This document shows, in pieces, positions 6,478 through 32,845 of a stretch of DNA of 64,000 nucleotides. Positions within the stretch are counted from its first letter, which is position 1. Each line of letters opens with the position of its first letter. The notes under the pieces are model-generated. The model searched no databases, was not told the DNA's origin, and was given only the letters and a program-made list of their open reading frames with translations. Location: contig NC_016133.3 in assembly GCF_000005505.3 (NCBI RefSeq), positions 31,055,008 to 31,119,007 of the forward strand. Reading direction: 5' to 3'. Both the position numbers and the translations under genes were made by a program. This stretch comes from Brachypodium distachyon (taxonomy: Eukaryota; Streptophyta; Magnoliopsida; Poales; Poaceae).

Positions 6478-6532
6478 CTAACTTGTGCTCGTTCATGCTA
6501 GGTAGCTATCTTGGTAGAAAGACTGTAAGGGC

Positions 6533-6857
6533 GTGTACAATGGTTGATAAGACAGTCTTATCTTAGGTGTTCCACGTCAATTAGAAAAGGCAACATAACA
6601 TGTTCTACAATGAGTTATCTCTTAGTGTTTTATCTAATGTTTAGGTGAATAAAATTAACTAAATAAATGCTAAGAAAAGGTGAAATCTAGTACAATGGTA
6701 AATTTGTCTTATCTTTGCCTTATCATTCTTGTGAAGCGATCATCACTTAATTAAAAAAAGGCTTGTGCCTTTTCTTCGTTTCTCTCTCTTCCACATCGAA
6801 TTTTATCCTATGTGACATCGCTAAGAAAAGGTTGACGTCACCCTATTGTACACGCCC
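6533..6857. mobile_element. PIF/Harbinger-like MITE
   Basis: The ends GGGCGTGTACAATGG and CCTATTGTACACGCCC are inverted repeats, flanked by TAA on each side. The interior is AT-rich and non-coding. It is a relative of the neighbouring 6034-6477 element. Confidence 0.72.
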
Positions 6858-6944
6858 TAAGGGAGACTCATCCAACATAATTGTGAGCACCAGAATTTGA
6901 ACTCTGGTGGGTGAAGTGATGCACCCACAACTCCACCGCCACAG

Positions 6945-8660
6945 CAAGAGGTGTTTCTCCCATCACTTGCTCTTCATAATACATTTTCACCTACTTTTAA
7001 TAAAAGTAATCAAATCTATTGCAAAAGACTAATATGGCGGTGATGTTTGTTATCAAAGCTAAGATTAATTTAGTACCAAATATAATGGTGGTCTTTTAGT
7101 CTAATTTATCTGTGGAAAATAGTCTAATTTTCTTTATTTGTAAGGTACTTTTTTAGGGGATAGAATCTCCACCTAAATATATGTGTAAGGTATTTAGGTA
7201 GTACTCTGTGATCTATAAAATCTTTATTTTGCGTAAAAAAGGAAGTCAACATCACTAGACCCATCCTTCGCATCTTAATATTTCTCCAGGTATTTGGTGA
7301 CGAAATTGCAGAACACCATCATTGCACAAGCTGGACTAATCTTATATATTTTGATAAGTCGCATGAGACGCTCACCTCAAACAGTGAAAACATAAGATCG
7401 TTTAACGCACTATTGCAAGTCGTGAAACCGCTGCTTCGTCAATGAATTGTGAAGAAAAGAGACCAAAAACACCAAAAGATGAGCTACGATAATCATTGAC
7501 TCCATGGTGTAGGCTGCGATGCCTACACCAAAATGAGAACGGAGTCAGGACTCAATCTTCTATACAACGTCATCTCCACGTAATGATGTCACCGCGAAGA
7601 ACACACAAACCTAAAAGAAAGAAAAAAGTTAAGATGCTAGAGATGAGGATAACCGCTGGAGACCAAATCTTTCTTCAAAGGTGAGAGGTAGGGTTTAGGA
7701 TATGTTTGGTTTGTGCCAAGAGTTGCCATACCAAAATTTGGCAAGCATTAGCTAACCAAAATATTGTCAATGATTTGTTTGCCTTTGGGTGGCCAAAATT
7801 TTTGCAAGAAGGGTTTGAGGGGTGAATTTGCAAGATTCTACGGGTAACAAACTTTTTTATATCCAAACAAACAAACGCCAAATCTTCGTAGGACGTCAAA
7901 TTTTATCAGGACAAATATAATCACAAACCAAAAGATCGTTAGTTTTTCGTACTCCAATGTATACCTGGGCAAACCCCGGGCCGGGCTTCATAAAAACCCG
8001 ACGGTCAAACCTGAAGCCCGAGCCCGGCCCGGCCCGAAGACCGGAAAATAGGAAATTTAAACATTAAAATAATTATTTTCAGAATAAAAAAATGTATTTT
8101 TATACATATTTTTCCTAAAAATATCAATTTAAGCCATTTCGGCCTTTTTTTTCAGGCTTTCGGGCTGGGCTTTGGGGAGAAAAGTGAAGCCCGGCCCCGA
8201 CCGGATACACTGGCTTCTGGCCGGGCCGGGCCGGGCCGGTCAGGCCGGGCCACCCATGCACATGTATACTCCTGTGGCTGTATCACCCGTACCCTTTTTT
8301 TTAGGGGAACATCACCCGTACCGTAACTTCTCTGCTTAAAAAGACCCGGCCTTCAGCGGGGTCAAAAGACACTGGGCCTAGTATCTACTTGGACGTCAAC
8401 TCAGGGCCCATCAGTCTCGGGTTGGGTCGGCGCTTCCGGGGTCCAGTCCAGCCCCTCTCAACCAGCGGACGCAGGCACGCATTATTGGCTCCGATCCGTG
8501 CCACCGCCTTAATAAGATCACGAGCCGAACTGCTTGCCCCTCCCCTCCTCTCCCGTTCGAAACAGAATCGAGATCACCAAACCCTAGCTATCTAGTAGCA
8601 TCTTTGTCCCCGCCAACGGGACCCGCATCGCCGTGCGTGTTCCTCCCCGCCAGCACCACC
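6945..8660. other. Arm 1 outer part: no gene, one GC-rich fold-back
   Basis: 7000-7950 is AT-rich and shows no coding pattern. 7970-8270 is a fold-back with GGGCCGGGCC-rich ends and an AT-rich centre (see its own entry). 8340-8650 is moderately GC-rich and leads into the DUF3615 gene. A 30-bp segment starting GTAGCATCTTTGTCCCCGCC occurs twice, near 8596 and 8712. The same applies, mirrored, to 31130-32845 in arm 2. Confidence 0.5.
7960..8275. mobile_element. GC-ended fold-back element (hAT-MITE-like), arm 1
   Basis: GTATACCTGGGCAAACCCCGGGCCGGGCTTC at the left is imperfectly inverted at the right, which ends near GTATACTCC, with repeated GGGCCGGGCC blocks and a 150-bp AT-rich centre. hAT-type MITEs with GGGCCGGGC ends are common in plants, but I could not identify an 8-bp target duplication. 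The mirror copy lies at about 31515-31830 in arm 2. Confidence 0.4.
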
Positions 8661-8661
8661 C

Positions 8662-11600
8662 ATGGAGGAGGAGCATCCACCAAGAATCATCGGTAACGGC
8701 ATGGTGTCTCGTAGCATCTTTGTCCCCGCCAACGGGACCCGGCCCGGCCACTTTATTCCGCGCGGCTCCACGCCAGGCACCCGCCGGTTCCGCCGTCAGC
8801 CGCCGGCGCCGCCACGCAACACCGGCGCCTCTTCATCGTCAGTTTTCGTCGAAATTTTGTTGTTGTGTCTTAGTAATTAATTAGTATTGTTTTGTCTACC
8901 GATTAATGTGGCGAGCTCTTGCATCCTTTGGGGTTTCGGATATCCAGCCTGGCCGAAATCGAATTGTTTTGTCCGTAGATAGATGGGGCTCGTGCATCTT
9001 TCGGGATTTTAAGTCGGTAGATGTCGTATAGTAGACTAGTATTAAAGTCGGTAGATTTGGTTACGAAGTTTTTTTTAACACAGAAAATATAAAGCTTTAT
9101 TGTTCCACATCTAGCACAATGATAATACAGATCATTCATTCATCTCCTAAGATATATAAGATGAACTGTCTTTGTACTCATCAAGCATGTCTTCTTGTTC
9201 TGCTTCAGGTGTGAGGAGAAGGAGCATCTGCCTGATCCATCATCAGGAGTGCACAACATTGCACCACAAATGCTGCTTGGACATGATGTCTTGTTCTCTA
9301 ACCCGATGCTCAGCAACGAGATGACACCATCTGGGTTTTCGGCCTTCACTGCTGCTTACGCCCCCCCATATTGGTGCACTCAGCAGCAGAAACCATGGTC
9401 CTGCCTTTCTACGTCTGTTGATGCACCTTCTTGGTACCTCATAAGCCACCAGGGCGCCGCCTTTGCCCTTCTCTTGGGCCACCTCTCTTGCACTGGAAAC
9501 AGCTTTACTGGGGAATTGACTTTTACATTAGGATCGATCATGCGGGATGTTACCACACGTATCCTCATGTGGGCGGGCCATTTAAAACACAAGATGAAGC
9601 TGCGGAAGCCATCAGGCGCTACCTCCATGACCGCCAGGATCCAAAAATGTAAAGTTTGCCAACTTCTAGATTTTCAATCCTACGGTTTAATTTGTGTGCA
9701 TGCTTGCAATTGATTACATTAAAACAGAGCTATGTTGCCACGTGCTTCTGTGATGTACTCCATGGAAGATAATCAATGTTTTTATGATATCTATCAGGAA
9801 AATGAGGAATAGTCCTAAGTTAGAGTAGAGAAAAGCTGACAAGTTGATAGGAAAAGAAGTACCAGCCTACATTGTTTCTTACGTTCCCATTTTGAGACCT
9901 TCTAAAGTTGAAAAACATGCATTTTTGTAACTGTATATGTGAGAAAAGCTACCACACTGTATTTATATCTGTATATTTTTTATCTCAATCATAAACTGTA
10001 CAATTGCTTAGCTTTTAACCAGGCACACCCACACAACTCTGTTTCATCGTGCACTAAACTGTACTGGTACCCAGAACAATAAGTCCCATTGACTAATCGG
10101 TAAACAGTGTGGTAATAGCACACCGGGTTAGGGGTTTGAAATGAAGGATGGGTACCTTTTTCTTAACAAGTCGATGTATATGAATTGACAACTTGTAGGC
10201 ATGTAAATAGTTCAGTTTTATTTTTGTTCATTATGCCATGGTTTTCACAGCGTCCAGGTGCTTTAAGGCGTTGGGGGGGCGCCTCGACGCCTAGTTGCTC
10301 AAAGCGCGAAGCGAGGTGACGCCTTAGTCAATTTTTGCAAAGCGCTAGGGGAACTAATATGGCAGACATGAGTAGACAGAAAACCTGATTCATACCTTGA
10401 ATTTCCTGGTTGTTGAGCCCATATAGCATCCATTCCTCCCGTCTTGTTTCCCATTTCTTTCTTCCACAATAGAAATCTGCATAAGATCTTTGATTGCTGT
10501 TCAACAACATTTTGTGGACCGTGCTCATGACATTGAAAGAGTTCTTAGTGTCACTTTGTATTGTATGTACTTATGAGAAAGTGTAATGTACTAATCTATA
10601 GAATGTTATGATGTAAACTAGGTTTACAGAGGATAATGTTTCTCCAGTGGACATCGGCTGTACGACAATGTCTTTACTGGCCTGACGGCACAAGGAAGAG
10701 ACGTTTGAGATCAGAACCAGTTGATGAAATCCGTGATAGGCAGCGCCAGTTGGTTCTTGCTTTGGTGGACAAGTACAATGAGGATAACCATCTTTCGGGG
10801 GTTTGCTCTCTGTCCCCTCCTCCTGCTCTAAAAAAAATGCCCTGTTTTTAACTCATATATACTGATTAATGGCTCATTGAATCCATGCTTATTACTTTAG
10901 GATCTTGCATATGCTCTCAAAGATGTGGTGTACTACCAATCAATTTTTGAGGGTGATTTCCAGAATTGTTACCATCATATCAATTTCACTGCAAAGCCTG
11001 AAGGGGCAGTTTGTTACAATCTCTTTTTTGCTGAAGTCATATTTATGAAAGGACAATCTGAAGAATTACCTGTCAGCTGTTTATGCAGTCTTAAACCTAC
11101 TGATAATGGTATATACTCTTATCTTACTTACCTATTTGTTGGTATTCTATACTCTTATCTTACCTATTTTTGCTATCCTAGTACTCTTGTCTTCATCACT
11201 TAATTATTGCTGAAATACAATTTGTGGGTCACTGGGGTTGCACTAACTTCAACTCATGTGTTAGATAGTATTGCAAATGTGTTTCTGTTTCAAATCTTCA
11301 CTGCGTTAACCTATTTGTTTGCCTCTTTTTTCATCTTATCCATTATCTTCGAGCTTTACTTCTTTAACATCTCAAACTGTGTACGGCCATGTGCAATGAC
11401 CAGCTATGCATGTTTTACTACATTCTGTTGTTAAGCAATTTTTCTTGTGCCTGGTTGGTTTATCTGGCAGTCGTTGACAAATTTCCTTCTTTGTCTCTTA
11501 CCTTCTAAAATTAAGGTAACTGCTTTGGTTGTAAAAACAATGGAAATGCTGATATGAAGCACCCCAATGATGTTGGTTACGCTGGTGGCCATGTGATGAA

Positions 11601-11783
11601 AAGATTTTGTCCATTTAGTGGACCTAGGATACCGGCTGGATTTTTTGACGATCACAACGTAAGTGCGATTGTTTACTTTTTAGCAAGCTAGTAACGTTTA
11701 GCATTTTGTTGCTTCATTCATTTCTGATGACATATCTTCTGCAGTTGCAAGCTGAGGAGGCTAATTTAAGAAGAGGTCTTAAG
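8662..11783 (+). pseudogene. DUF3615-family gene, arm 1 copy, 3'-truncated
   Basis: This is a multi-exon gene of the grass DUF3615 family; the function is unknown. A first exon may start at 8662 (MEEEHPPRI). The next coding stretch, around 9195-9652, ends in a conserved block with LYWGIDFYIRIDHAG and YHTYPHVGGPF, but a frame change is needed near 9440. Well-defined exons follow: 10630-10800 (SLYWPDGTRKRR-like, LVDKYNEDNHL), 10901-11108 (CYHHINFTAKPEGA, LFFAEVIF), 11516-11658 (NCFGCKNNGNADMKHP, then GYAGGH) and 11745-11783 (LQAEEANLRRGLK). Junctions follow GT/AG and the phases agree between the last three. After the donor at 11784 the intron runs into foreign sequence at 11877, so the terminal exon is missing; the copy at 58.7-62.9 kb still has it. 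The family assignment is from memory of its conserved blocks. Confidence 0.75.
10240..10335. repeat. Short GC-rich direct/inverted motif in DUF3615 intron
   Basis: An isolated block contains GGCGTTGGGGGGGCGCCTCGACGCC and AAAGCGCGAAGCGAGGTGACGCC within an AT-rich intron. It is absent from the corresponding intron of the third DUF3615 copy near 59.1 kb, so it is a later insertion or was lost there. Origin unknown. The mirror lies at 29455-29550. Confidence 0.35.
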
Positions 11784-11876
11784 GTAATGGCATTGCTTGT
11801 TGTTATTGTATCATTTATCGTTACATAATGTTGCTTACTTGATTTGATTAATGTTGCTTACTTGATTTGCTTACAT

Positions 11877-12594
11877 AAATATTTACGTCGGGGAGTAGTA
11901 GCACCGAGTGCACGTCTCGTCTCGGTATCTGCATGCGACGTAACAAATTTACGCCGGAGTAGTAGCAGCGAGCGCACGTTTGAGGCAGCAGCAGCGAGCT
12001 CACGTCTCGTTCGGCATCTGCATGCACCGTAAGAAGTTTAAGTTGAGGCAGCAGGGGGCATAATTTGTGAGGAGTGTCCGCTGTGTTTGCATGAGACGTA
12101 AGAAAGTTACGTTGCAGCTTATAACAACATAGGATGCTAGTCAGCTAGTACGACCTTAAATTACGGCAAACGATCGAGTGGTTCAGAAGGCTCTGTTGCT
12201 TGGTCACGTTGATTCATAAATCACCGGATTGCTATTTTTGAGTGGTTAGAAATTCACTAGATCATAATTTTGTTGATATAAATAGATGCACGGCTATAGC
12301 TTGTAGATTGTATTAACAATGGCAGACACAGACCTAGACCACTGCAACGTTTGTAATTATCCGCAGTACATGTGTGATCTCAGGTTTTCATTTGAACTCC
12401 TCAACTGGTTCACCATATCTGCAGATTTCAAGACTCGCATGGTAAGCCCTATCACTGATCATCAGAAGTTGTTCATTAACATGTTCTAATATTAATTACA
12501 TATGTGTAGGTCATACCTTGTAAATATGGGGACCACTTCACTCGTTATTGAAGGGGCGAGATGAAATTGGAAATGGAACCACTTCATGAATGGT
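11877..12594. repeat. 718-bp direct repeat, arm 1 distal copy
   Basis: Identical in length to 13875-14592 (constant offset of 1998 bp, no indels, a few substitutions). It carries a tandem of degenerate units, each a CATGCGACGTAA-like core followed by GGAGTAGTAGCA, and then the first exon and part of the second exon of the B3-domain gene. Sequence identity stops abruptly after GAATGGT. The mirrored copy is 27196-27913. Confidence 0.9.
12319..12594 (+). pseudogene. B3-domain gene fragment, arm 1 distal copy
   Basis: Exon 1 at 12319-12441 (MADTDLDHCNVCNYPQ...) ends at a GTAAGC donor. Exon 2 begins at 12510 (VIPCKYGDHFTRY) and meets a TGA where one other copy has a Trp codon. It breaks off after HEW at 12594, so most of the domain is missing. 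This is a truncated copy of the gene at 14317. Confidence 0.75.
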
Positions 12595-13874
12595 TTGATA
12601 GACACATGACCCGTCTATCAGATTTTGAACATAAAAGAGTATTTCATGCAGTTCAGCAGTGCACACATGTGCTATAGTTCGGTGCGTTCTCATTTGTTTG
12701 GGGTGAAAACCCAAATTAGGTGCAGATCTGAAAATTCCAATCCACAGCTGTGGGACCTCCGCAACCAGTAATTTTTGCCCGCGTCAAAGAAGAATGAGGT
12801 CTATAGGCGTGAACGTTCTTAACTTCCATCGGTAAACGAGTGAACTTTCATTTTATAGACTGAAATTCCTGACAGTCTCTGAACCTCCGTCACCTGTAAT
12901 TTTTGCCCGCGCCGGAGAAAAAGGATGTCTCCGGGCGTGAATGTACTGAACTTCCCTAAATACACGAGTGAACTTCCTTTTATATACTGTGAACTTCCTG
13001 ACTGTGTCTGAATCTCCGTCGCCTGTATCTTTGCTCGCGCAGAGAAGAAGGACGTCCACGGACGTGAACGTTTTGAAATCCCCTAAAATACGCTAGTGAA
13101 CTTCATTTTTTTTATTGACTGTGAACTTCCTGGCGGTTTCTAAACATCCGCCGCTTGTATCTTCCTCGTTTATAACCTGTGAACTTTCTGACGGTTTCAA
13201 ACAGCGGACGGTAATTTGAAATCTGCTCTTAAACCGTAAGGAATTAGCAAAAACTTTATTAACAAAAAAGTTGCGACTAGTTCGTAGCTTTCCAATGCCG
13301 TATCATTTGCATCATTCCGACTTGTAGTTCAAAATATATCGTAGAAATACCGTCCGTTGTTTTTTGTTTGGTCGCATCCAGCGGACGATAATTTGAAATC
13401 TGCTCTTAAACCGTAAAGAACTAGCAAAACCTTTATAAACGAAAAAGTTGCGCCTAGTTCATAGATTTCCAACGCTGTATCATTTGCATCATTCCGACTA
13501 GCGGTTAAAAATATATCATAGAAATACCGTCCACTGTTTCTTTGTCCGGGCGCAGGGTCGGCAGCGTTCGGGTCGGGGTGCGAGGCCGGCGGCGTTCGGG
13601 TCGGGGTGCGGGGCGGGCAGCGTGCGGGTCGGGGTGCGGGGTCGGGCGGGGTCGGCGGCGCGCGGGTTGGGGTGCTCGATCGGGAGTGGATCGGGGCGTG
13701 CGGGTTGGTCTTAAGGTAGGTTCCTGTTTAGTCCTGCCCTCTCTCTATATATATATCGCGCTATTTGACTCCCTGGGTGCAGAATACGCGCCAGGTTTGC
13801 TGGAGCGACCGCCCCGCACCGCGCCACACGACCCCGCCGCACGGACCGTGAATATTAATCTGCATGCGACGTAA
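12595..13874. repeat. Nested tandem repeats between the 718-bp repeats (arm 1)
   Basis: Three layers are visible. About 12745-13140 holds three imperfect copies of a unit near 125 bp, each with a CTCCGTCRCCTGTA-like block, a GTGAACGTT-like block and GAACTTCC motifs. About 13200-13540 holds two copies of a unit near 178 bp (TTTGAAATCTGCTCTTAAACC, CATTTGCATCATTCCGACT). About 13556-13690 is a GC-rich minisatellite of about four units around GTTCGGGTCGGGGTGCGGGG. A TATATATATAT run at 13745 follows. I see no protein domain; the long GC frame at 13542-13874 is a composition effect. Confidence 0.7.
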
Positions 13875-14592
13875 AAATATTTACGTCGGGGAGTAGTAGC
13901 ACCGAGCGCACGTCTCGTCTCGGTATCTGCATGCGACGTAACAAATTTACGCCGGAGTAGTAGCAGCGAGCGCACGTTTGAGGCAGCAGCAGCGAGCTCA
14001 CGTCTCGTTCGGCATCTGCATGCACCGTAAGAAGTTTAAGTTGAGGCAGCAGGGGGCATAATTTGTGAGGAGTGTCCGCTGTGTTTGCATGAGACGTAAG
14101 AAAGTTACGTTGCAGCTTATAACAACATAGGATGCTAGTCAGCTAGTACGACCTTAAATTACGGCAAGCGATCGAGTGGTTCAGAAGGCTCTGTTGCTTG
14201 GTCACGTTGATTCATAAATCACCGGATTGCTATTTTTGAGTGGTTAGAAATTCACTAGATCATAATTTTGTCGATATAAATAGATGCACGGCTATAGCTT
14301 GTAGATTGTATTAACAATGGCAGACACAGACCTAGACCACTGCAACGTTTGTAATTATCCGCAGTACATGTGCGATCTCGGGTTTTCATTTGAACTCCTC
14401 AACTGGTTCACCATATCTGCAGATTTCAAGACTCGCATGGTAAGCCCTATCACTGATCATCAGAAGTTGTTCATTAACATGTTCTAATATTAATTACATA
14501 TGTGTAGGTCATACCTTGTAAATATGGGGACCACTTCACTCGTTATTGAAGGGGCGAGATGAAATTGGAAATGGAACCACTTCATGAATGGT
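13875..14592. repeat. 718-bp direct repeat, arm 1 proximal copy
   Basis: Second copy of 11877-12594. Its right end lies within exon 2 of the B3-domain gene, where only this copy continues into the rest of the gene. The pair could be terminal repeats of an element or 1.37 copies of a 1998-bp tandem duplication. I favour the duplication, because the ends do not begin TG or end CA and the boundary lies inside an exon. Confidence 0.9.
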
Positions 14593-14940
14593 ATGAGTTC
14601 GAGGTAAAAAAAAGAGGGGCAAAATTCTACCTCGCAGGCGATTGGGAGATGTTCGCGAACATTTACAATATTAAGCAAGGCGATGAGCTGTGTTTTGTCC
14701 TTGGCCCAATCATCCACGAACACCTAACTATTGGCCATTTACGCCGGCGGTCAGGCGGTATAGCACTGCCTAGGTGCACCATTGGTCGGTTTTGTTCCCA
14801 TTATACTTACCCATTGTCTGGAAACTTATGCCATGAGTTAAACCTAATGATAATATCAATCTTTATCTTCAGCGGAATACGAGGCTGAGCAAGAGCGGGA
14901 CCAGATGGAGGAATGTACAACCTCGGTCGACACTCAATAG
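14317..14940 (+). pseudogene. B3-domain protein gene, arm 1 copy with nonsense codon
   Basis: Exon 1 is 14317-14439 (41 codons, starts MADTDLDHCNVCNY, ends at a GTAAGC donor). Exon 2 starts at 14508 after TGTGTAG. Together they read FTISADFKTRM / VIPCKYGDHF, then KLEMEPLHEWYEFEVKKRG, then AGDWEMFANIYNIKQGDELCFVL. That is a plausible single plant B3 DNA-binding domain (REM-like) with its closing GW..F....L..GD..F pattern. Codon 14547-14549 is TGA in this copy, whereas the mirror copy in arm 2 reads TGG. Exon 2 probably stops near 14772. A possible acidic third exon at 14873-14940 (EAEQERDQMEE) ends in TAG, but the splice phase is unresolved. Confidence 0.6.
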
Positions 14941-16140
14941 TGGATGATTATGACGCTTCTTGCTACCGTTGCCCGTCTCCCGTCATGATTTATTTAAAAA
15001 AATTACGTCGCATGGGGAGTCTGGCTCGGTCGAGTGGCTAGGGTTGGTCCCGTCGTTCGGCTCATTAGATCGACCTGGGTGAAAAATAGTTAGTCTACAC
15101 CCTCGGTATCTAATAGAGTATTGATGGCGAGTGCGGCACCACAGGAAGAGGGCGGCGATCGGGCACATCCGCGGCGAAGAAAGCTAGTCTTGTGTTGTGT
15201 TTTTTTTACGGATTTGACAAGTCTATATTGCCCTCCCACATTACTCCTTTGTTTAGATGGAGTATTAGGTATGGTAGGACCTGCAATATAATTTTATTTT
15301 GAACCGGTTATAAGAACAAAAATGCTTTTAATTATAATTGTCCCAACAAAAAATAAAAGATAATGATTTTGCAATAGAAGCACCCCTACGCTCAGCCCAA
15401 CAAAATACAGCCCACATGGCGCACAACACGGCATCCCAGACACCAGCCCAGCAGCTCGGTCGCTCGCGCAACCTGTGACTGTGAGGATCGTCGTCTGTCT
15501 CGAGTACTGCCCATTCCCAAAGTCCATGCAACGAAAAGAACGGAAGCCGCCCAACTGCAAGCCCCCAAAATCCAAAACTCTACCACAGCGATCAGCGGCC
15601 GGCGGACGAGAACGGCTGGCTCATTCACGTTTTCAACTCCATCTCAGCAAGGTGCAGCACGAGCGCAAGGCACGCACGGCATTGTTTGAGGTTTGTGTTT
15701 ATCTGAAAAAGTTATCCTGCATTGGATTTAGAATGATTCATGATGCACCGATGTAGTTGTTGTTTAAGTACTAATTAACCAGATTATGTTTAATGGAGAC
15801 TAGTAATGCGTCCAAAATGATCTGTTTGAATCCGAAATACAGTTCGTGCGCGCATGCGTATATATATCATATTTCTTCCCCCTGGCATCCACATCAACCG
15901 TGGTACGTACGTATTGAGTTAATCTCCAATCTGCAAGAAATAGTGTCATGTGAGAGGACAAAACAAAATGTACTATATGGCACATAGTTGCATGAACGAG
16001 GTATCAAGTCCTTCAAAAGCTATTATCCTGAAAAGCTTGCTCTCACATGTGCTCCACTACCTCAAAAAGTATCTCTCTTTATTGGCCCATGATTATTGAT
16101 GAGAATTTAGACACTTCCTGAAATAAATCAATAAAAAATT
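14941..16140. other. Inner arm 1 and start of loop, no clear gene
   Basis: The stretch 14990-15826 is present in arm 2 at roughly 95 percent identity. A compositionally mixed segment at 15400-15660 has frames open on both strands but no domain. 15827-16140 is the first part of the loop, unique to this side. I see nothing certain; it could be a 5' flank or terminal region of the transposase gene that follows. Confidence 0.4.
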
Positions 16141-16182
16141 ATGGCATGCAAATGTAAGCTGATCAATTTGCAGGAAAATAAC

Positions 16183-19100
16183 ATGGACTCATCTCCATGT
16201 TTCCGGCGGCGAGAACCGGAAGACACATCCGCATCTCCGGAGAAGGTAGTTGTGTCTGACCGTGCGATTGCACATACCTCTTACCTCACTCCGAAACATG
16301 GCGTCGGGACATCGGGAGCCAGGTGCTCAACTGGATCGATGGCCGGTGATAACCCAACAGCACGCCACCCAGCGATGCACTTGTCCAGGATAACTCCGCC
16401 TCAACCTGTTCAACCACAAGAAATGATGACACCAGATCCGAACGCAAAATTTACACATGTAGGTTCTCTCAACTTCTGTGTGGAACAAAAAAATTATGAC
16501 AATATTTTGACGTGTTTATGTTAATAATCTATTTCAGGGTGAGCAAGTTCATGAGGACTTTGTTCCGAAGAAAAATATGGTTTTTGCTACATGTGAAGAA
16601 GGCTATGAGTTTTATCGGCAATACGCCAGGGAAGCCGGATTTGGAATTAAGAAACATAAGAACAAGACGATGTCACGCCTGTATGCTTGCTCTAGGCAAG
16701 GTTCAAGTACATTTTACAAGACGGGCGGGGAGCGCAAACGTGCAAAAATGTCAAAGAGGGTTGGTTGCAAGGCTGCCGTCAAGATCAAGCTGAAAGGAAC
16801 TGAATGGTTCTACGAGAATGTAGAGTTGGAGCATAACCATGCTCTCAACCCTAATCCATGTGAGGTGAAGCACATGCGTTCACACAAGATCCGGTAATTA
16901 TGGAATATGTTGATGATCTTCAGCAAAGTGGCGTCTCCCCTATCGCAACCATGAATGTGTTGGCTACCTTAAATGGAGACCCTGAGCTCTTGCCAATGAA
17001 TGACCGTGACCTAGAAAACAGGTAAACCAAGACCGAATCAGTTGCATACATATTATTTTTAAAGACAGTTGATAACATACCTGCTAACTTCATCACTCTG
17101 CACTGATACAAACTGATATATGAAATGCAGAAGGGCGGCTAATTTACGAGAGGAGCAAGTGGTTGATGTAAAGAAGCTCATGGCCTTCTTCAGTGAGTAC
17201 AGAACACATAACCCAAAATTTTATTACGATATTGAATTCGATTCAGCAGGGGTCGTGAAAAATATTTTCTGGAGTCATGCTAGCTGCCAAGCTAACTATG
17301 CCGAGTTTGGAGATGTGGTCACATTCGACACCACATACAGGAGCAATTTTTATTGCATGCCATTGGGCATGTTTGTTGGGAGCAACCATCATTTGCAGAA
17401 TGTAATATTTGGGTTTGTCCTCGTCCGCGATGAGACACAGAAAACTTTTGAATGGGTTTTTCGGACTTTCAAGAACTGCATGGAAGGAAAAGATCCTATT
17501 TGCATACTGACAGGTACACAAGGCCTTTTCTGTCTGCATATACACATCTCCAACCAATCACTTTGTAACCAATTTGTTTGCTAACTAATAATTAATTACT
17601 ATGTAGATCAAGACCAAGCTATGGCAAATGCTCTTCAAGCTGTGTTTGTCAGGACGATTCATAGGCTCTGCAGGTGGCATATGTTGAACAAGCACACGGA
17701 GAGCTTGAATAAACTTTATCACTCGAATAAAGGGTTGGAGGAAAAGCTACTCACAGCAGTTAATCACCCACTAACCCCAGCAGTGTTTGAGAATGCATGG
17801 CAGGAGATGGTGAGTGAGTACGAACTCGAGTCAGATCCAACATTGTGTAGTCTGTACGAGCTCCGAGCTAGCTGGATTGCTTCTTACTTCAAGGACATTT
17901 TCTGCGGGAGAATGACGTCGACTCAACGTAGTGAGTGCATGGACAGAATGGTGAAAAGACACCACGTTGATGATTCAACACCTCTCCATGTGTTTGCTAA
18001 AAAAATGTACCAAGTGTTACAAAGGAGAAAAGATGCTGAAGGTCAAGAAACAATTGCATCGCAGGTATTGGATCTAACAGAACATCAAATTCTGATAAAT
18101 GGTTTCTTGTATTCTCTGTCATCTTAAAATCATGTAACATACAAATGGAAAGTTCAGAAACAGACAAATTTATCTTGGAACATTCATCGTATAAATTGGA
18201 TATGTCTGTAGAAAGCTATGTAAAAATGTTGGGTTTAGCCTTCTGAATGGCGTAGCAAAGCAATAATGTAAAATTTGTGTATATACGGCTGTTTGTAGTT
18301 GCTATCATAGTCATGTGAAACTTTTTACATCAATGCACGTCAATGGTACAATGTAGCAGGAATAATAGGTGTTGTGGCTTTGATCTGCAAAACAACCATG
18401 TGCTCATTTATATACTTAGAGCTATAACTTTGCAATAATGTAAATTCTTTCAATCCTTAAGCTGGGTAATTTTCATTCAATTCTATCATTACTTGAAATG
18501 AAAACACATGAACATATCAATCATTCACTCTTCTTTGCGAATGTAGGCCCCCCCTGCGACAAAGACAAACTATCCTCTGGAACGTCAGCTGAGCAGGATC
18601 TACACACGTGCAGTATTCAAAAAATACCAAGAAGCCTATGTTGCTGGAACCTCTTTCCGGACAAAGAATGATGGCCCATGTAAATTCCTTGTGTACTATG
18701 GTAGGGAAGGCCCTACGTTTTCATGGTCACAACATGAGTACATGGTAGTTTGCGATGAAGAGAAAGAAGAATACAGTTGTTGAGTGCAAACAGTGGGAGC
18801 ACACAGGTAACCAAAATATGGGTCTCCACAATTTTACAGTGAAAAATACCATGATTGGAACCACGTTTATATTAACTATGTGTGTCATTGCGCATGACTG
18901 CTTTGCCCACACCTCATTATAGTACTGATAAATGAGCAGATTCAAAAGCTCCCTAGCAAGTACGTGCTAAGAAGGTACACGAGGAATGCACATATTGACC
19001 TTCACTACGACAGGAATGATACTATCCAGACAGGAAATGATGGCCTATCAAAAGGTGGGAGAAATAGCAACATGCTAAGACAAGCTTATGCAACTATAAG

Positions 19101-23130: not shown

Positions 23131-23189
23131 TAGTATGACAATGATTAGAACAGAAAAAAAATATGTCGAAAAAAGAAAAGGCTAGTTTT

Positions 23190-23580
23190 TATGGTTTTTG
23201 CTACATGTGAAGAAGGCTATGAGTTTTATCGGCAATACGCCAGGGAAGCCGGATTTGGAATTAAGAAACATAAGAACAAGACGATGTCACGCCTGTATGC
23301 TTGCTCTAGGCAAGGTTCAAGTACATTTTACAAGACGGGCGGGGAGCGCAAATGTGCAAAAATGTCAAAGAGGGTTGGTTGCAAGGCTGCCGTCAAGATC
23401 AAGCTGAAAGGAACTAAATGGTTCTACGAGAATGTAGAGTTGGAGCATAACCATGCTCTCAACCCTAATCCATGTGAGGTGAAGCACATGCGTTCACACA
23501 AGAACAAGGATCCGGTAATTATGGAATATGTTGATGATCTTCAGCAAAGTGGCGTCTCCCATATCGCAACCACGAATGTA
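23190..23580 (+). pseudogene. Second copy of the FAR1-domain exon (fragment)
   Basis: A direct copy of about 16576-16966, nearly identical. It has no 5' exon and breaks off after ATCGCAACCACGAATGT. It keeps AAGAACAAGGATCCGG where the long copy has AAGATCCGG, so the reading frame MRSHKNKDPVIMEY is intact here. It therefore records the state before the 7-bp deletion in the main gene. It is the first segment of the composite junction. Confidence 0.88.
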
Positions 23581-23967
23581 AGTCATTGCTTGTAAGTCAA
23601 AAGAATATACAGAATTGGCTTATGAAAAGAATATACATAATTTAGCCACGTCTTAGACCTCAATGTCAATAGAATGTACAGATTTCAGAGTTACAAACGG
23701 TAGAACTGGAAGGCTGGTTAATCATCCCAAAGTTTTCGGACAGAAATGGGCAGCAAGGAGACTGGAAGTGGGTTGTCCAGCTATTGCGTTTCATAGAAAT
23801 GAATATATGGCAAGATCTGCACTTTGGAATCTAGACAGAATGTAGTAGTACATATTCTCTTGCATAACAGGTTCAATCCCTCCATCTGATGACAATCAGA
23901 AATGGGCAGCAAGGAGACTGGAAGTGTGCTATGTAATATATTCACAAAATGATGAGGTGCTATGTAA
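23581..23967. other. Mosaic junction of copied segments between loop and arm 2
   Basis: Read left to right after the FAR1 fragment: 23583-23896 is an inverted copy of 19771-20081; 23897-23926 repeats 23741-23770 (AGAAATGGGCAGCAAGGAG); 23924-23956 is a direct copy of 19726-19758 (GTGTGCTATGTAATATATTC); 23957-23967 repeats GTGCTATGTAA once more; then arm 2 starts. Neighbouring pieces overlap by a few bases at some joins (for example GTG). This is what serial template switching would leave. Confidence 0.85.
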
Positions 23968-25017
23968 CAGATCATTTTGGATGCATTACTAGTCTCCATT
24001 AAACATAATCTGGTTAATTAGTACTTAAACAACAACTACATCGGTGCATCATGAATCATTCTAAATCCAATGCAGGATAACTTTTTCAGAAACACAAACC
24101 TCAAACAATGTGGTGCGTGCCTTGCGCTCGTGCTGCACCTTGCCGAGATGGAGTTGAAAACGTGAATGAGCCAGCCGTTCTCGTCCGCCGGCCGCTGATC
24201 GCTGTGGTAGAGTTTTGGATTTTGGGGGCTTGCAGTTGGGCGGCTTCCGTTCTTTTCGTTGCGTGGAGTTTGGGAATGGGCAGTACTCGAGACAGACGAC
24301 GATCCTCATAGTCACAGGTTGCGCGAGCGACCGAGCTGCTGGGCTGGTGTCTGGGCTGCCATGTCGTGCGCCATGTGGGCTGTATTTTGTTGGGCTGAGC
24401 CTAGGGGTGCTTCTATTGCAAAATCATTATCTTTTATTTTTTGTTGGGACAATTGTAATTAAAAGCATTTTTATTCTTATAACTGGTTCTAAAGAAAATT
24501 ATATTGCAGATCCTACCATACCTAATACTCCATCTAAACAAAGGAGTAATGTGGGAGGGCAATATAGACTTGTCAAATCCGTAAAAAAAACACAACACAA
24601 CACTAGCTTTCTTCGCCGCGGATGTGCCCGATCGCCGCCCTCTTCCTGTGGTGCCGCACTCGCCATCTATACTCTATTAGATACCCAGGGTGTAGACTAA
24701 CTATTTTTCACCCTGGTCGATCTAACGAGCCGGACGACGGGACCAACCCTGGCCACTCGACCGAGCCAGACGCCCCATGCGACGTAATTTTTTTAAATAA
24801 ATTATGACGGGAGACGGGCAACGGTAGCAAGAAGCGTCATCATCATCCACTATTGAGTGTCGACCGAGGTTGTACATTCCTCCATCTCGTCCCGCTCTTG
24901 CTCAGCCTGGTATTCCGCTGAAGATAAAGATTGATATATTCATTAGGTTTAACTCATGACATAAGTTTCCAGACAATGGGTAAGTATAAAGGGAACAAAA
25001 CCGACCAATGGTGCACC

Positions 25018-25473
25018 TAGGCAGTGCTATACCGCCTGACCGCCGGCGTAAATGGCCAACAGTTAGGTGTTCGTCGATGATTGGGCCAAGGACAAAACAC
25101 AGCTCATGGCCTTGCTTAATATTGTAAATGTTCGCGAACATCTCCCAATCGCCTCCGAGGTAGAATTTTGCTCCTCTTTTTTTTTCCTCGAACTCGTACC
25201 ATTCATGAAGTGGTTCCATTTCCAATTTCATCTCGCCCCTCCAATAACGAGTGAAGTGGTCCCCATATTTACAAGGTATGACCTACACATATGTAATTAA
25301 TATTAGAACATGTTAATGAACAACTTCTGATGATCAGTGATAGGGCTTACCATGCGAGTCTTGAAATCTGCAGATATGGTGAACCAGTTGAGGAGTTCAA
25401 ATGAAAACCCGAGATCGCACATGTACTGCGGATAATTACAAACGTTGCAGTGGTCTAGGTCTGTGTCTGCCAT
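25018..25473 (-). CDS. B3-domain protein gene, arm 2 copy, open
   Basis: Mirror of the arm 1 gene: exon 1 25473-25351, exon 2 from 25282 downward. The codon that is TGA in arm 1 reads TGG (Trp) here at 25241-25243, so FTISADFKTRM-VIPCKYGDHFTRYW runs on into KLEMEPLHEWYEFEEKKRG and GGDWEMFANIYNIKQG without interruption. Arm 2 differs from arm 1 in several residues (E for V, G for A, H for D). The 3' end and terminal exon are uncertain. If expressed it would be a small single-B3 nuclear DNA-binding protein, with no other domain visible. Confidence 0.5.
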
Positions 25474-25915
25474 TGTTAATACAATCTACAAGCTATAGCC
25501 GTGCATCTATTTATATCGACAAAATTATGATCTAGTGAATTTCTAACCACTCAAAAATAGCAATCCGGTGATTTATGAATCAACGTGACCAAGCAACAGA
25601 GCCTTCTGAACCACTCGATCGCTTGCCGTAATTTAAGGTCGTACTAGCTGACTAGCATCCTATGTTGTTATAAGCTGCAACGTAACTTTCTTACGTCTCA
25701 TGCAAACACAGCGGACACTCCTCACAAATTATGCCCCCTGCTGCCTCAACGTAAACTTCTTACGGTGCATGCAGATGCCGAACGAGACGTGAGCTCGCTG
25801 CTGCTGCCTCAAACGTGCGCTCGCTGCTACTACTCCGGCGTAAATTTGTTACGTCGCATGCAGATACCGAGACGAGACGTGCGCTCGGTGCTACTACTCC
25901 CCGACGTAAATATTT
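25198..25915. repeat. 718-bp direct repeat, arm 2 proximal copy
   Basis: Mirror of 13875-14592, with differences at the positions opposite 14040 (C for A) and 14549 (G for A). It overlaps the 5' part of the arm 2 B3 gene. Confidence 0.88.
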
Positions 25916-27195
25916 TTACGTCGCATGCAGATTAATATTCACGGTCCGTGCGGCGGGGTCGTGTGGCGCGGTGCGGGGCGGTCGCTCCAGCAAACCTGGC
26001 GCGTATTCTGCACCCAGGGAGTCAAATAGCGCGATATATATATAGAGAGAGGGCAGGACTAAACAGGAACCTACCTTAAGACCAACCCGCACGCCCCGAT
26101 CCACTCCCGATCGAGCACCCCAACCCGCGCGCCGCCGACCCCGCCCGACCCCGCACCCCGACCCGCACGCTGCCCGCCCCGCACCCCGACCCGAACGCCG
26201 CCGGCCTCGCACCCCGACCCGAACGCTGCCGACCCTGCGCCCGGACAAAGAAACAGTGGACGGTATTTCTATGATATATTTTTAACCGCTAGTCGGAATG
26301 ATGCAAATGATACAGCGTTGGAAATCTATGAACTAGGCGCAACTTTTTCGTTTATAAAGGTTTTGCTAGTTCTTTACGGTTTAAGAGCAGATTTCAAATT
26401 ATCGTCCGCTGGATGCGACCAAACAAAAAACAACGGACGGTATTTCTACGATATATTTTGAACTACAAGTCGGAATGATGCAAATGATACGGCATTGGAA
26501 AGCTACGAACTAGTCGCAACTTTTTTGTTAATAAAGTTTTTGCTAATTCCTTACGGTTTAAGAGCAGATTTCAAATTACCGTCCGCTGTTTGAAACCGTC
26601 AGAAAGTTCACAGGTTATAAACGAGGAAGATACAAGCGGCGGATGTTTAGAAACCGCCAGGAAGTTCACAGTCAATAAAAAAAATGAAGTTCACTAGCGT
26701 ATTTTAGGGGATTTCAAAACGTTCACGTCCGTGGACGTCCTTCTTCTCTGCGCGAGCAAAGATACAGGCGACGGAGATTCAGACACAGTCAGGAAGTTCA
26801 CAGTATATAAAAGGAAGTTCACTCGTGTATTTAGGGAAGTTCAGTACATTCACGCCCGGAGACATCCTTTTTCTCCGGCGCGGGCAAAAATTACAGGTGA
26901 CGGAGGTTCAGAGACTGTCAGGAATTTCAGTCTATAAAATGAAAGTTCACTCGTTTACCGATGGAAGTTAAGAACGTTCACGCCTATAGACCTCATTCTT
27001 CTTTGACGCGGGCAAAAATTACTGGTTGCGGAGGTCCCACAGCTGTGGATTGGAATTTTCAGATCTGCACCTAATTTGGGTTTTCACCCCAAACAAATGA
27101 GAACGCACCGAACTATAGCACATGTGTGCACTGCTGAACTGCATGAAATACTCTTTTATGTTCAAAATCTGATAGACGGGTCATGTGTCTATCAA
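25916..27195. repeat. Nested tandem repeats, arm 2
   Basis: Mirror of 12595-13874: the GC-rich minisatellite at about 26100-26235, two units near 178 bp at about 26250-26590 and three units near 125 bp at about 26650-27045. I found no difference from arm 1 here. Confidence 0.7.
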
Positions 27196-27913
27196 ACCAT
27201 TCATGAAGTGGTTCCATTTCCAATTTCATCTCGCCCCTTCAATAACGAGTGAAGTGGTCCCCATATTTACAAGGTATGACCTACACATATGTAATTAATA
27301 TTAGAACATGTTAATGAACAACTTCTGATGATCAGTGATAGGGCTTACCATGCGAGTCTTGAAATCTGCAGATATGGTGAACCAGTTGAGGAGTTCAAAT
27401 GAAAACCTGAGATCACACATGTACTGCGGATAATTACAAACGTTGCAGTGGTCTAGGTCTGTGTCTGCCATTGTTAATACAATCTACAAGCTATAGCCGT
27501 GCATCTATTTATATCAACAAAATTATGATCTAGTGAATTTCTAACCACTCAAAAATAGCAATCCGGTGATTTATGAATCAACGTGACCAAGCAACAGAGC
27601 CTTCTGAACCACTCGATCGTTTGCCGTAATTTAAGGTCGTACTAGCTGACTAGCATCCTATGTTGTTATAAGCTGCAACGTAACTTTCTTACGTCTCATG
27701 CAAACACAGCGGACACTCCTCACAAATTATGCCCCCTGCTGCCTCAACTTAAACTTCTTACGGTGCATGCAGATGCCGAACGAGACGTGAGCTCGCTGCT
27801 GCTGCCTCAAACGTGCGCTCGCTGCTACTACTCCGGCGTAAATTTGTTACGTCGCATGCAGATACCGAGACGAGACGTGCGCTCGGTGCTACTACTCCCC
27901 GACGTAAATATTT
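27196..27913. repeat. 718-bp direct repeat, arm 2 distal copy
   Basis: Mirror of 11877-12594, including the truncated B3 exons at 27471-27198. It keeps the TGA at the Trp position, as both arm 1 copies do. One difference from arm 1 is seen opposite position 11917. Confidence 0.88.
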
Positions 27914-28006
27914 ATGTAAGCAAATCAAGTAAGCAACATTAATCAAATCAAGTAAGCAACATTATGTAACGATAAATGATACAATAACAACAAGCAATGC
28001 CATTAC

Positions 28007-31000
28007 CTTAAGACCTCTTCTTAAATTAGCCTCCTCAGCTTGCAACTGCAGAAGATATGTCATCAGAAATGAATGAAGCAACAAAATGCTAAACGTTACT
28101 AGCTTGCTAAAAAGTAAACAATCGCACTTACGTTGTGATCGTCAAAAAATCCAGCCGGTATCCTAGGTCCACTAAATGGACAAAATCTTTTCATCACATG
28201 GCCACCAGCGTAACCAACATCATTGGGGTGCTTCATATCAGCATTTCCATTGTTTTTACAACCAAAGCAGTTACCTTAATTTTAGAAGGTAAGAGACAAA
28301 GAAGGAAATTTGTCAACGACTGCCAGATAAACCAACCAGGCACAAGAAAAATTGCTTAACAACAGAATGTAGTAAAACATGCATAGCTGGTCATTGCACA
28401 TGGCCGTACACAGTTTGAGATGTTAAAGAAGTAAAGCTCGAAGATAATGGATAAGATGAAAAAAGAGGCAAACAAATAGGTTAACGCAGTGAAGATTTGA
28501 AACAGAAACACATTTGCAATACTATCTAACACATGAGTTGAAGTTAGTGCAACCCCAGTGACCCACAAATTGTATTTCAGCAATAATTAAGTGATGAAGA
28601 CAAGAGTACTAGGATAGCAAAAATAGGTAAGATAAGAGTATAGAATACCAACAAATAGGTAAGTAAGATAAGAGTATATACCATTATCAGTAGGTTTAAG
28701 ACTGCATAAACAGCTGACAGGTAATTCTTCAGATTGTCCTTTCATAAATATGACTTCAGCAAAAAAGAGATTGTAACAAACTGCCCCTTCAGGCTTTGCA
28801 GTGAAATTGATATGATGGTAACAATTCTGGAAATCACCCTCAAAAATTGATTGGTAGTACACCACATCTTTGAGAGCATATGCAAGATCCTAAAGTAATA
28901 AGCATGGATTCAATGAGCCATTAATCAGTATATATGAGTTAAAAACAGGGCATTTTTTTTAGAGCAGGAGGAGGGGACAGAGAGCAAACCCCCGAAAGAT
29001 GGTTATCCTCATTGTACTTGTCCACCAAAGCAAGAACCAACTGGCGCTGCCTATCACGGATTTCATCAACTGGTTCTGATCTCAAACGTCTCTTCCTTGT
29101 GCCGTCAGGCCAGTAAAGACATTGTCGTACAGCCGATGTCCACTGGAGAAACATTATCCTCTGTAAACCTAGTTTACATCATAACATTCTATAGATTAGT
29201 ACATTACACTTTCTCATAAGTACATACAATACAAAGTGACACTAAGAACTCTTTCAATGTCATGAGCACGGTCCACAAAATGTTGTTGAACAGCAATCAA
29301 AGATCTTATGCAGATTTCTATTGTGGAAGAAAGAAATGGGAAACAAGACGGGAGGAATGGATGCTATATGGGCTCAACAACCAGGAAATTCAAGGTATGA
29401 ATCAGGTTTTCTGTCTACTCATGTCTGCCATATTAGTTCCCCTAGCGCTTTGCAAAAATTGACTAAGGCGTCACCTCGCTTCGCGCTTTGAGCAACTAGG
29501 CGTCGAGGCGCCCCCCCAACGCCTTAAAGCACCTGGACGCTGTGAAAACCATGGCATAATGAACAAAAATAAAACTGAACTATTTACATGCCTACAAGTT
29601 GTCAATTCATATACATCGACTTGTTAAGAAAAAGGTACCCATCCTTCATTTCAAACCCCTAACCCGGTGTGCTATTACCACACTGTTTACCGATTAGTCA
29701 ATGGGACTTATTGTTCTGGGTACCAGTACAGTTTAGTGCACGATGAAACAGAGTTGTGTGGGTGTGCCTGGTTAAAAGCTAAGCAATTGTACAGTTTATG
29801 ATTGAGATAAAAAATATACAGATATAAATACAGTGTGGTAGCTTTTCTCACATATACAGTTACAAAAATGCATGTTTTTCAACTTTAGAAGGTCTCAAAA
29901 TGGGAACGTAAGAAACAATGTAGGCTGGTACTTCTTTTCCTATCAACTTGTCAGCTTTTCTCTACTCTAACTTAGGACTATTCCTCATTTTCCTGATAGA
30001 TATCATAAAAACATTGATTATCTTCCATGGAGTACATCACAGAAGCACGTGGCAACATAGCTCTGTTTTAATGTAATCAATTGCAAGCATGCACACAAAT
30101 TAAACCGTAGGATTGAAAATCTAGAAGTTGGCAAACTTTACATTTTTGGATCCTGGCGGTCATGGAGGTAGCGCCTGATGGCTTCCGCAGCTTCATCTTG
30201 TGTTTTAAATGGCCCGCCCACATGAGGATACGTGTGGTAACATCCCGCATGATCGATCCTAATGTAAAAGTCAATTCCCCAGTAAAGCTGTTTCCAGTGC
30301 AAGAGAGGTGGCCCAAGAGAAGGGCAAAGGCGGCGCCCTGGTGGCTTATGAGGTACCAAGAAGGTGCATCAACAGACGTAGAAAGGCAGGACCATGGTTT
30401 CTGCTGCTGAGTGCACCAATATGGGGGGGCGTAAGCAGCAGTGAAGGCCGAAAACCCAGATGGTGTCATCTCGTTGCTGAGCATCGGGTTAGAGAACAAG
30501 ACATCATGTCCAAGCAGCATTTGTGGTGCAATGTTGTGCACTCCTGATGATGGATCAGGCAGATGCTCCTTCTCCTCACACCTGAAGCAGAACAAGAAGA
30601 CATGCTTGATGAGTACAAAGACAGTTCATCTTATATATCTTAGGAGATGAATGAATGATCTGTATTATCATTGTGCTAGATGTGGAACAATAAAGCTTTA
30701 TATTTTCTGTGTTAAAAAAAACTTCGTAACCAAATCTACCGACTTTAATACTAGTCTACTATACGACATCTACCGACTTAAAATCCCGAAAGATGCACGA
30801 GCCCCATCTATCTACGGACAAAACAATTCGATTTCGGCCAGGCTGGATATCCGAAACCCCAAAGGATGCAAGAGCTCGCCACATTAATCGGTAGACAAAA
30901 CAATACTAATTAATTACTAAGACACAACAACAAAATTTCGACGAAAACTGACGATGAAGAGGCGCCGGTGTTGCGTGGCGGCGCCGGCGGCTGACGGCGG

Positions 31001-31128
31001 AACCGGCGGGTGCCTGGCGTGGAGCCGCGCGGAATAAAGTGGCCGGGCCGGGTCCCGTTGGCGGGGACAAAGATGCTACGAGACACCATGCCGTTACCGA
31101 TGATTCTTGGTGGATGCTCCTCCTCCAT
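28007..31128 (-). pseudogene. DUF3615-family gene, arm 2 copy, 3'-truncated
   Basis: Exact mirror of the arm 1 gene: possible first exon from 31128, conserved block ending at 30138, then exons 29160-28990, 28889-28682, 28274-28132 and 28045-28007. I found no coding difference from arm 1. As in arm 1 the terminal exon is absent, because the intron meets the 718-bp repeat at 27913. The truncation is therefore older than, or part of, the event that copied the arm. Confidence 0.75.
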
Positions 31129-31514
31129 GGGTGGTGCTGGCGGGGAGGAACACGCACGGCGATGCGGGTCCCGTTGGCGGGGACAAAGATGCTACTAGAT
31201 AGCTAGGGTTTGGTGATCTCGATTCTGTTTCGAACGGGAGAGGAGGGGAGGGGCAAGCAGTTCGGCTCGTGATCTTATTAAGGCGGTGGCACGGATCGGA
31301 GCCAATAATGCGTGCCTGCGTCCGCTGGTTGAGAGGGGCTGGACTGGACCCCGGAAGCGCCGACCCAACCCGAGACTGATGGGCCCTGAGTTGACGTCCA
31401 AGTAGATACTAGGCCCAGTGTCTTTTGACCCCGCTGAAGGCCGGGTCTTTTTAAGCAGAGAAGTTACGGTACGGGTGATGTTCCCCTAAAAAAAAGGGTA
31501 CGGGTGATACAGCC

Positions 31515-31830
31515 ACAGGAGTATACATGTGCATGGGTGGCCCGGCCTGACCGGCCCGGCCCGGCCCGGCCAGAAGCCAGTGTATCCGGTCGGGGCCGGG
31601 CTTCACTTTTCTCCCCAAAGCCCAGCCCGAAAGCCTGAAAAAAAAGGCCGAAATGGCTTAAATTGATATTTTTAGGAAAAATATGTATAAAAATACATTT
31701 TTTTATTCTGAAAATAATTATTTTAATGTTTAAATTTCCTATTTTCCGGTCTTCGGGCCGGGCCGGGCTCGGGCTTCAGGTTTGACCGTCGGGTTTTTAT
31801 GAAGCCCGGCCCGGGGTTTGCCTAGGTATA
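31515..31830. mobile_element. GC-ended fold-back element, arm 2
   Basis: Mirror of 7960-8275. The one mismatch noted in this part of the arms (GTATACCTAGG here against GTATACCTGGG in arm 1) lies at its end. Confidence 0.4.
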
Positions 31831-32845
31831 CATTGGAGTACGAAAAACTAACGATCTTTTGGTTTGTGATTATATTTGTCCTGATAAAATTTGACGTCCT
31901 ACGAAGATTTGGCGTTTGTTTGTTTGGATATAAAAAAGTTTGTTACCCGTAGAATCTTGCAAATTCACCCCTCAAACCCTTCTTGCAAAAATTTTGGCCA
32001 CCCAAAGGCAAACAAATCATTGACAATATTTTGGTTAGCTAATGCTTGCCAAATTTTGGTATGGCAACTCTTGGCACAAACCAAACATATCCTAAACCCT
32101 ACCTCTCACCTTTGAAGAAAGATTTGGTCTCCAGCGGTTATCCTCATCTCTAGCATCTTAACTTTTTTCTTTCTTTTAGGTTTGTGTGTTCTTCGCGGTG
32201 ACATCATTACGTGGAGATGACGTTGTATAGAAGATTGAGTCCTGACTCCGTTCTCATTTTGGTGTAGGCATCGCAGCCTACACCATGGAGTCAATGATTA
32301 TCGTAGCTCATCTTTTGGTGTTTTTGGTCTCTTTTCTTCACAATTCATTGACGAAGCAGCGGTTTCACGACTTGCAATAGTGCGTTAAACGATCTTATGT
32401 TTTCACTGTTTGAGGTGAGCGTCTCATGCGACTTATCAAAATATATAAGATTAGTCCAGCTTGTGCAATGATGGTGTTCTGCAATTTCGTCACCAAATAC
32501 CTGGAGAAATATTAAGATGCGAAGGATGGGTCTAGTGATGTTGACTTCCTTTTTTACGCAAAATAAAGATTTTATAGATCACAGAGTACTACCTAAATAC
32601 CTTACACATATATTTAGGTGGAGATTCTATCCCCTAAAAAAGTACCTTACAAATAAAGAAAATTAGACTATTTTCCACAGATAAATTAGACTAAAAGACC
32701 ACCATTATATTTGGTACTAAATTAATCTTAGCTTTGATAACAAACATCACCGCCATATTAGTCTTTTGCAATAGATTTGATTACTTTTATTAAAAGTAGG
32801 TGAAAATGTATTATGAAGAGCAAGTGATGGGAGAAACACCTCTTG

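Follow-up and report, generated by a model that had tools for sequence, protein, structure and literature searches.

How a 26-kb palindrome came to be built around a transposon, and whether its two arms arose in one event, is the question raised by this locus. The window (the whole stretch of DNA analysed here, 64 kb, C4:31055008–31119007) yields a sole inverted self-BLAST match, between the left arm (6945–15826) and the right arm (32845–23966), which covers 8882 columns at 99.48% identity with one gap opening. Global alignment of the arms gives 44 substitutions (22 transitions) and a single 2-bp gap at 15700–15701. The arms enclose a loop of 8139 bp (15827–23965), which is unduplicated between the inverted copies and holds small internal repeats of its own. 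A 26-kb palindrome with 8.9-kb arms, an 8.1-kb loop and almost no indels had been claimed in the preliminary description, and the alignment bears out each of these points; the coordinate sums of 39790, claimed from 6945 to at least 15531, hold as far as 15699 and become 39792 past the 2-bp gap. In 20 mononucleotide shuffles of the window, the longest inverted match was only 47 bp (E up to 10), which excludes a palindrome formed by chance.

The divergence between the arms is markedly uneven. The outer part (left arm 6945–14548 on the plus strand, right arm 25242–32845 on the minus strand) carries 3 mismatches in 7604 bp (0.04%) without gaps, whereas the inner part (14549–15826) carries 41 mismatches in 1278 bp (3.2%; Fisher P 1.5e-31). 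The best single changepoint lies at 14548, where the log-likelihood gain is 69.6; among 2000 uniform placements the highest gain was 11.4. The mismatch nearest the outer edge is 1022 bp inward, and the outer-arm differences fall at 7967, 11909 and 14039, the first two being transitions. Since the base of the right arm at 14039 is common to the outgroups described below, only 7967 and 11909 look post-copy. If substitutions are assumed to accrue at 1.3e-8 or 7e-9 per site per year, the outer arms date to ~15 or ~28 thousand years ago (the two 95% ranges jointly extend from 3 to 82 thousand) and the inner arms to ~1.2 or ~2.3 million years ago. The earlier view that one arm is a reversed copy of the other is supported in that one arm does look like such a copy, but the arms are not one homogeneous copy (3 versus 41 mismatches).

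The divergence step falls inside a transposon. A terminal motif is exact at 13758 (plus strand) and at 26004–26032 (minus strand), and these are the only two sites in the window with up to 6 mismatches; the right-hand motif is no independent witness, because it sits in the recently copied part. They delimit a Mutator-like element (about 13758–26032, plus strand) with relatives at C5:25.80 Mb and C6:8.68 Mb. The transposon is not confined to the loop, as had been supposed, and takes in the inner ~2 kb of both arms. Its Mutator-like nature is supported by the FAR1 (PF03101, E 6.8e-16) and MULE (PF10551, E 2.6e-16) domains, both above cut-off, in the transposase gene region (16511–19602, plus strand; open frames 16511–16894, 17117–17581, 17585–18124 and 18898–19602), and protein relatives of the transposase piece among the matches listed (at least 69) include Triticum and Aegilops entries. 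By comparison, the protease gene also attributed to the loop comes down to a weak match, a possible Ulp1-type (C48) protease exon (20714–21145, minus strand; PF02902, E 0.047, below Pfam's cut-off).

The element has long terminal inverted repeats (TIRs) of ~2.07 kb, and 1.28 kb of this length owes nothing to the recent copying. The left TIR spans 13758–15826 on the plus strand, and its part 14549–15826 is 3.2% diverged from the right TIR (23966–26032, minus strand). Within the latter, 23966–25241 is old right-lineage sequence, whereas 25242–26032 is nearly identical to the left TIR, indicating that it was overwritten. We searched the genome (271.29 Mb, 11 contigs) for copies. For the TIR stretch 14597–15826, full-length relatives occur at C6:8.685 Mb (97%) and C5:25.800 Mb (96%), in addition to partial ones. 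The C5 copy matches 13925–23193 in a single run at 97.2%, and its right TIR was not seen within the 30 kb fetched; the C6 relative contains a 1320-bp inverted repeat (99.2%), the right-hand repeat of which ends at 15134. Over 14549–15826, the left and right TIRs differ from each other at 41 of 1276 columns and from the C5 copy at 37 and 39 of 1270 columns, respectively. They have 11 substitutions and two indels in common against both outgroups, and 18 changes in 1270 columns are private to each. Judged from these counts, the two TIRs are an old sister pair that evolved at equal rates. The right TIR can be read in two ways, as the native second end of the element or as an early inverted copy of the first. 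The private changes (14549–15826 / 23966–25241) are rich in transversions, with 17 of 36 being transitions.

TA runs adjoin the left end of the C5 copy, the right end of the C6 copy and one end of both short relatives (2/2); the first bases of the C6 left end are missing, yet a TA run precedes it too. With regard to a 9-bp target-site duplication, the element ends lie beside TA runs, and at our locus the left flank recurs on the right as an inverted copy. Within the TIR, a terminus-like motif is present at 15090–15135, where two short relatives end against TA repeats, and the right-hand repeat of the C6 relative stops ~15 bp or less from it; a short element may be nested there. Elsewhere, two diverged (75%) FAR1/MULE relatives lie in inverted arrangement at C5:26892675–26898890 and may reflect a similar but older rearrangement.

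The loop is closed by a templated mosaic of 0.78 kb (23190–23965), consistent with the mosaic junction reported earlier. It is composed of four or five element pieces in the order 16576–16958 (direct), 20088–19769 (inverted), 19926–19897 (inverted) and 19725–19758 (direct), the last piece being a 9–11-bp repeat of 19728–19738 (direct), followed by the TIR. Overlaps at the joins are ~4, 0 (plus ~3 extra bases), 2, 4 and 1–2 bp. The C5 copy runs unbroken across the first join, and among the matches listed (23 genomic places) the joined form is the window's own only. Mismatches between the mosaic pieces and their donors number 11 in 703 positions, against 41 in 1278 between the TIRs (P 0.028), and the donors differ from the C5 copy at 5 positions by hand count. 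Dated by these differences, the mosaic clearly predates the outer arms (P 4e-10). Its copy of the FAR1 exon (23149–23592) can still be read for 148 codons without a stop and matches FAR1 over the full length.

An extra copy of the TIR in the left flank makes the direction of copying readable. This 722-bp repeat, hereafter repeat A (11877–12598, plus strand), is 99.2% identical to TIR 13875–14596, and its counterpart in the right arm (27192–27913, minus strand) has left-TIR-derived bases at the 3 sites where the TIRs differ within A. For polarity we used two other genomic element copies as outgroups (two loci, three sequences). Positions 14039, 14549 and 14594 carry the same derived base in the left TIR and in both copies of repeat A, whereas the right TIR still has the base found in each of the three outgroup sequences. 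These derived bases imply that repeat A was made from the left TIR and that the repeat A of the right arm came from the left arm. Because the right arm has left-lineage bases and the right TIR is ancestral at these sites, the polarity points firmly to left-to-right copying in the repeat-A/TIR region, as read from three sites and two outgroup loci with 20 of the 42 variable columns, at which the outgroups differ, set aside. The left outer arm would accordingly be the donor and the right outer arm the recent inverted copy; the reverse assignment, with the right arm as donor, is ruled out by the polarity at the derived sites. Position 14373 is derived in both TIRs and not in repeat A, so the transfer into the right TIR post-dates repeat A. 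Furthermore, over 13758–14548 the TIRs differ at 1 site as compared with ~25 expected from the inner rate (P 2.5e-10), and 0 right-private changes are found among the polarisable columns as compared with ~11 predicted.

The transition zone of the recent event (14039–14549) is of alternating ancestry. Moving outward along the right TIR, one meets the ancestral base at 14594 and 14549, a left-derived base at 14373 and the ancestral base again at 14039; past this point the sequence is identical to the left TIR. This patchiness suits a repaired heteroduplex; the ancestral base at 14039 is possibly a reversion or the product of a mixed consensus. Between repeat A and the element end lies a high-copy repeat (12755–13738) that contains 128-bp and 177-bp tandem arrays. 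The 722-bp repeats were also considered as an LTR retrotransposon and rejected, as they lack TG...CA ends (start AAATAT, end TGA) and a 5-bp duplication, their flanks being TACAT and GTTCG.

The two outer edges of the palindrome are of different nature. At the right edge (32845/32846), the arm meets the interior of a high-copy transposon with 0–1 bp of overlap at the joint. The truncated transposon (32846–34664, plus strand) probably carries a plant mobile domain (PMD PF10536, E 4.4e-8, just under cut-off). Among the matches listed (40 of 262 candidates scored), 38 of 39 other places match from query position 1–4, and in 11/11 other copies fetched (two aligned) the transposon extends upstream of the breakpoint. 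The part after 34256 is found ~1.1 kb further along in 4/11 copies (within a 1500-bp flank), indicating that the transposon continues rightward with an internal deletion. We considered 32846–34256 as a complete transposon inserted at the edge and rejected it, since the copies continue on both sides. At the left edge (6944/6945), no repeat family was seen to break among the matches listed (40 of 932 candidates scored). The nearest repeat is a MITE-derived stretch with family copies (6035–6858), which ends 86 bp outside this edge; its computed fold as single-stranded DNA is very strong (z –15.2, 0/20 shuffles as stable). The terminal motif of the element is absent from both outer edges (6945 and 32845), and the flanks have no duplication in common. 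A giant foldback transposon spanning the whole 26 kb was rejected for this lack of a flanking duplication and for the broken transposon found at the right edge.

Few other features were recognised in the arms. Among five arm ORF pieces outside the element that were scanned, a DUF3615 gene fragment alone (10901–11200, plus strand; PF12274, E 1.3e-12; mirror copy 28590–28889) scored above Pfam's cut-off, and a Pfam search with the ORF at 9195–9713 gave no match. Neither tRNAs nor Rfam matches reaching the gathering score were found in the 64-kb window. An older direct-orientation copy (85–91%) of arm 9847–11783, the DUF3615-like region included, lies at 58752–60789 and is the sole other copy among the matches listed (40 of 351 candidates scored). 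In addition, the window holds a 1.04-kb direct repeat (2060–3103 / 53352–54394), the two copies of which are 95% identical and lie 51 kb apart.

The divergence step, its position inside the TIRs, the left-to-right direction in the repeat-A/TIR region and the broken transposon at the right edge can be read directly from the sequence. Since the inner arms are diverged TIRs and the outer ~7.6 kb alone is recent, at least two phases are required and the homology that seeded the copy can be named. We lean towards an origin in which the diverged TIRs of an old element later seeded a recent, break-induced-replication-like copy outward. In the first phase, an old Mutator-like element (~12 kb, TIRs ~2 kb) would have been resident at the locus; its two TIRs would have diverged to 3.2%, and its right internal part would have been lost and patched with the templated filler mosaic. 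In the second, recent phase, a break may have occurred in or just beyond the right TIR. The right TIR end could then pair with the left TIR for homologous repair, presumably by strand invasion, and synthesis, running outward, would copy the left element end and then the adjoining 6.8 kb of flank, stopping at 6945. The hairpin at 6035–6858 might have stopped it, which is only a guess. The new end would have been joined, with 0–1 bp overlap, to the interior of the transposon on the right, and the original right flank would have been lost in the process.

TIR strand invasion followed by outward synthesis is expected to leave the trace seen here, a step in identity ~790 bp inside the TIR, beyond which the right side is nearly identical to the left. 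We favour two-phase copying because of the divergence step, the identity of the inner arm as TIR, the left-to-right polarity, the cut transposon and the patchy zone, although misassembly or gene conversion of an older palindrome would also yield the same polarity. The replication-based origin proposed in the preliminary description is supported, and can now be stated more sharply.

The main biological rival is gene conversion of an older full-length palindrome. Here a single old event would have produced both the whole 8.9-kb inverted copy and the mosaic, and later left-to-right conversion would have homogenised the outer 7.6 kb only. The chain of mosaic pieces leads straight into the arm at 15826, as one event would have it, and conversion has been reported for plant palindromes, as described in PMC7023750. 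The mosaic is weakly less diverged from its donors than are the TIRs (11/703 versus 41/1278, P 0.028), with even fewer donor–C5 differences (5), which makes one old event possible. Conversion would, however, have to reach the very end of the homology, since the outermost mismatch lies 1022 bp in from the edge (the probability that 100 bp of leftover diverged tail would be free of mismatches is 0.04), and would also have to carry across repeat A, which was made after the TIRs split. We therefore regard this explanation as unlikely, the strongest of the alternatives though it is.

An assembly artefact comes next. The right TIR might have been misjoined to left-flank sequence, the TIRs being 97% alike; the identity step indeed lies inside the very repeat able to mislead an assembler, the alternating bases at 14039–14549 could reflect a mixed consensus, and the outer arms are marked by only 2–3 differences. 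Against this, 0–1 bp is shared at the right outer junction, which makes overlap an unlikely source of that junction and would require a chimeric clone or read. The outer differences besides 14039 are both transitions, the outer 7.6 kb is gap-free and the window contains zero ambiguity letters N. The artefact named in the preliminary description, a fold-back long read, does not account for an unpaired loop of 8.1 kb. A misjoin in the assembly thus seems distinctly improbable to us.

Even less credible, in our judgement, is unequal exchange of the inverted TIRs between sister chromatids, giving a dicentric chromatid that broke and re-fused. The repeat-mediated route to inverted duplication with deletion (inv-dup-del), as described in PMC9199198, has the same geometry, an unpaired spacer edged by inverted repeats, and by sequence alone the exchange is indistinguishable from copying, but to leave an interstitial palindrome the chromatid would have to break and then fuse again with the same chromosome arm. 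Re-replication from the element ends by alternative transposition, as in maize Ac/Ds, can duplicate DNA flanking transposon ends (as described in PMC4270019), but it predicts that the new insertion junctions have transposon ends with target duplications. Here the identity step sits ~790 bp within the TIR, and no site in the window other than 13758 and 26004 matches the terminal motif at up to 6 mismatches; we give this explanation hardly any weight.

Large palindromes often conceal their origin, because gene conversion evens out their arms. At this locus, the seed repeat, the direction, the relative order of events, the zone of strand exchange and the broken right edge are readable from one sequence and two outgroup copies. 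Two-phase copying, if confirmed, would mean that, in a plant, transposon TIRs suffice as the seed of an inverted duplication, and it suggests a signature that can be sought genome-wide, namely identity steps falling inside long TIRs. More speculatively, and with considerable doubt on our part, long MULE TIRs might continually drive the replicative rearrangement of plant chromosomes, with three copying events here (the mosaic inside the element, the TIR fragment exported to the flank as repeat A and the recent 7.6-kb inverted copy), and the inverted DNA might also yield a hairpin RNA that silences the family.

Among the open-access papers listed for Brachypodium palindromes and for MULE TIRs with break-induced replication, none dealt with this locus or mechanism; its separate features have counterparts in described systems. 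The runs of TA beside the left end of the C5 copy, the ends of the C6 copy and one end of each short relative recall MuTAnT and TAFT, the MULEs described as targeting TA microsatellites (PMC4486113), whereas ours is a grass element with a FAR1 domain and ~2-kb TIRs, the likeness being one of description. Repeat A, an extra TIR copy outside the element end, resembles the arrangement described for MULEs with tandem TIRs (PMC3310237), but it lacks an element terminus and lies 1.16 kb away with another repeat between. The mosaic is similar to the gap-filling and template-switching (FoSTeST) mosaics described in DNA transposons (PMC8277862) in its short, nearby templated pieces and mostly microhomology joins, and differs in that the pieces come from the element itself, beside a palindrome, with no captured gene seen. 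As with Mu killer of maize in the description of PMC3440606, a MULE has been rearranged so that the same end occurs twice in inverted orientation. Unlike in Mu killer, the inverted internal piece here (19769–20088 / 23580–23898) lies past the transposase open frames; an inverted duplication of transposase coding sequence of that type is absent, the copied FAR1 exon being direct and only 19769–20088 inverted.

The palindromes of the willow W chromosome, as presented in PMC7023750, likewise combine a plant setting with uneven arm identity, but they are much larger and sex-linked, and conversion was tested there with a second species. A close parallel is the human inv-dup-del rearrangement, in which inverted copies surround a single-copy spacer and form via inverted repeats or fold-back, as described in PMC9199198 and PMC3907307. 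The unduplicated spacer, the inverted homology at its edges and the outer end joined elsewhere are common to both, and at our locus that homology predates the copy, with a TIR divergence of 3.2% as compared with 0.04% outside. By comparison with the human cases described, ours is interstitial, of kilobase scale and in a plant, and its inverted repeats are the ends of one transposon with the recombination step visible inside them. Rearrangements of this kind are already known; unusual here is that so much of the history can still be read.
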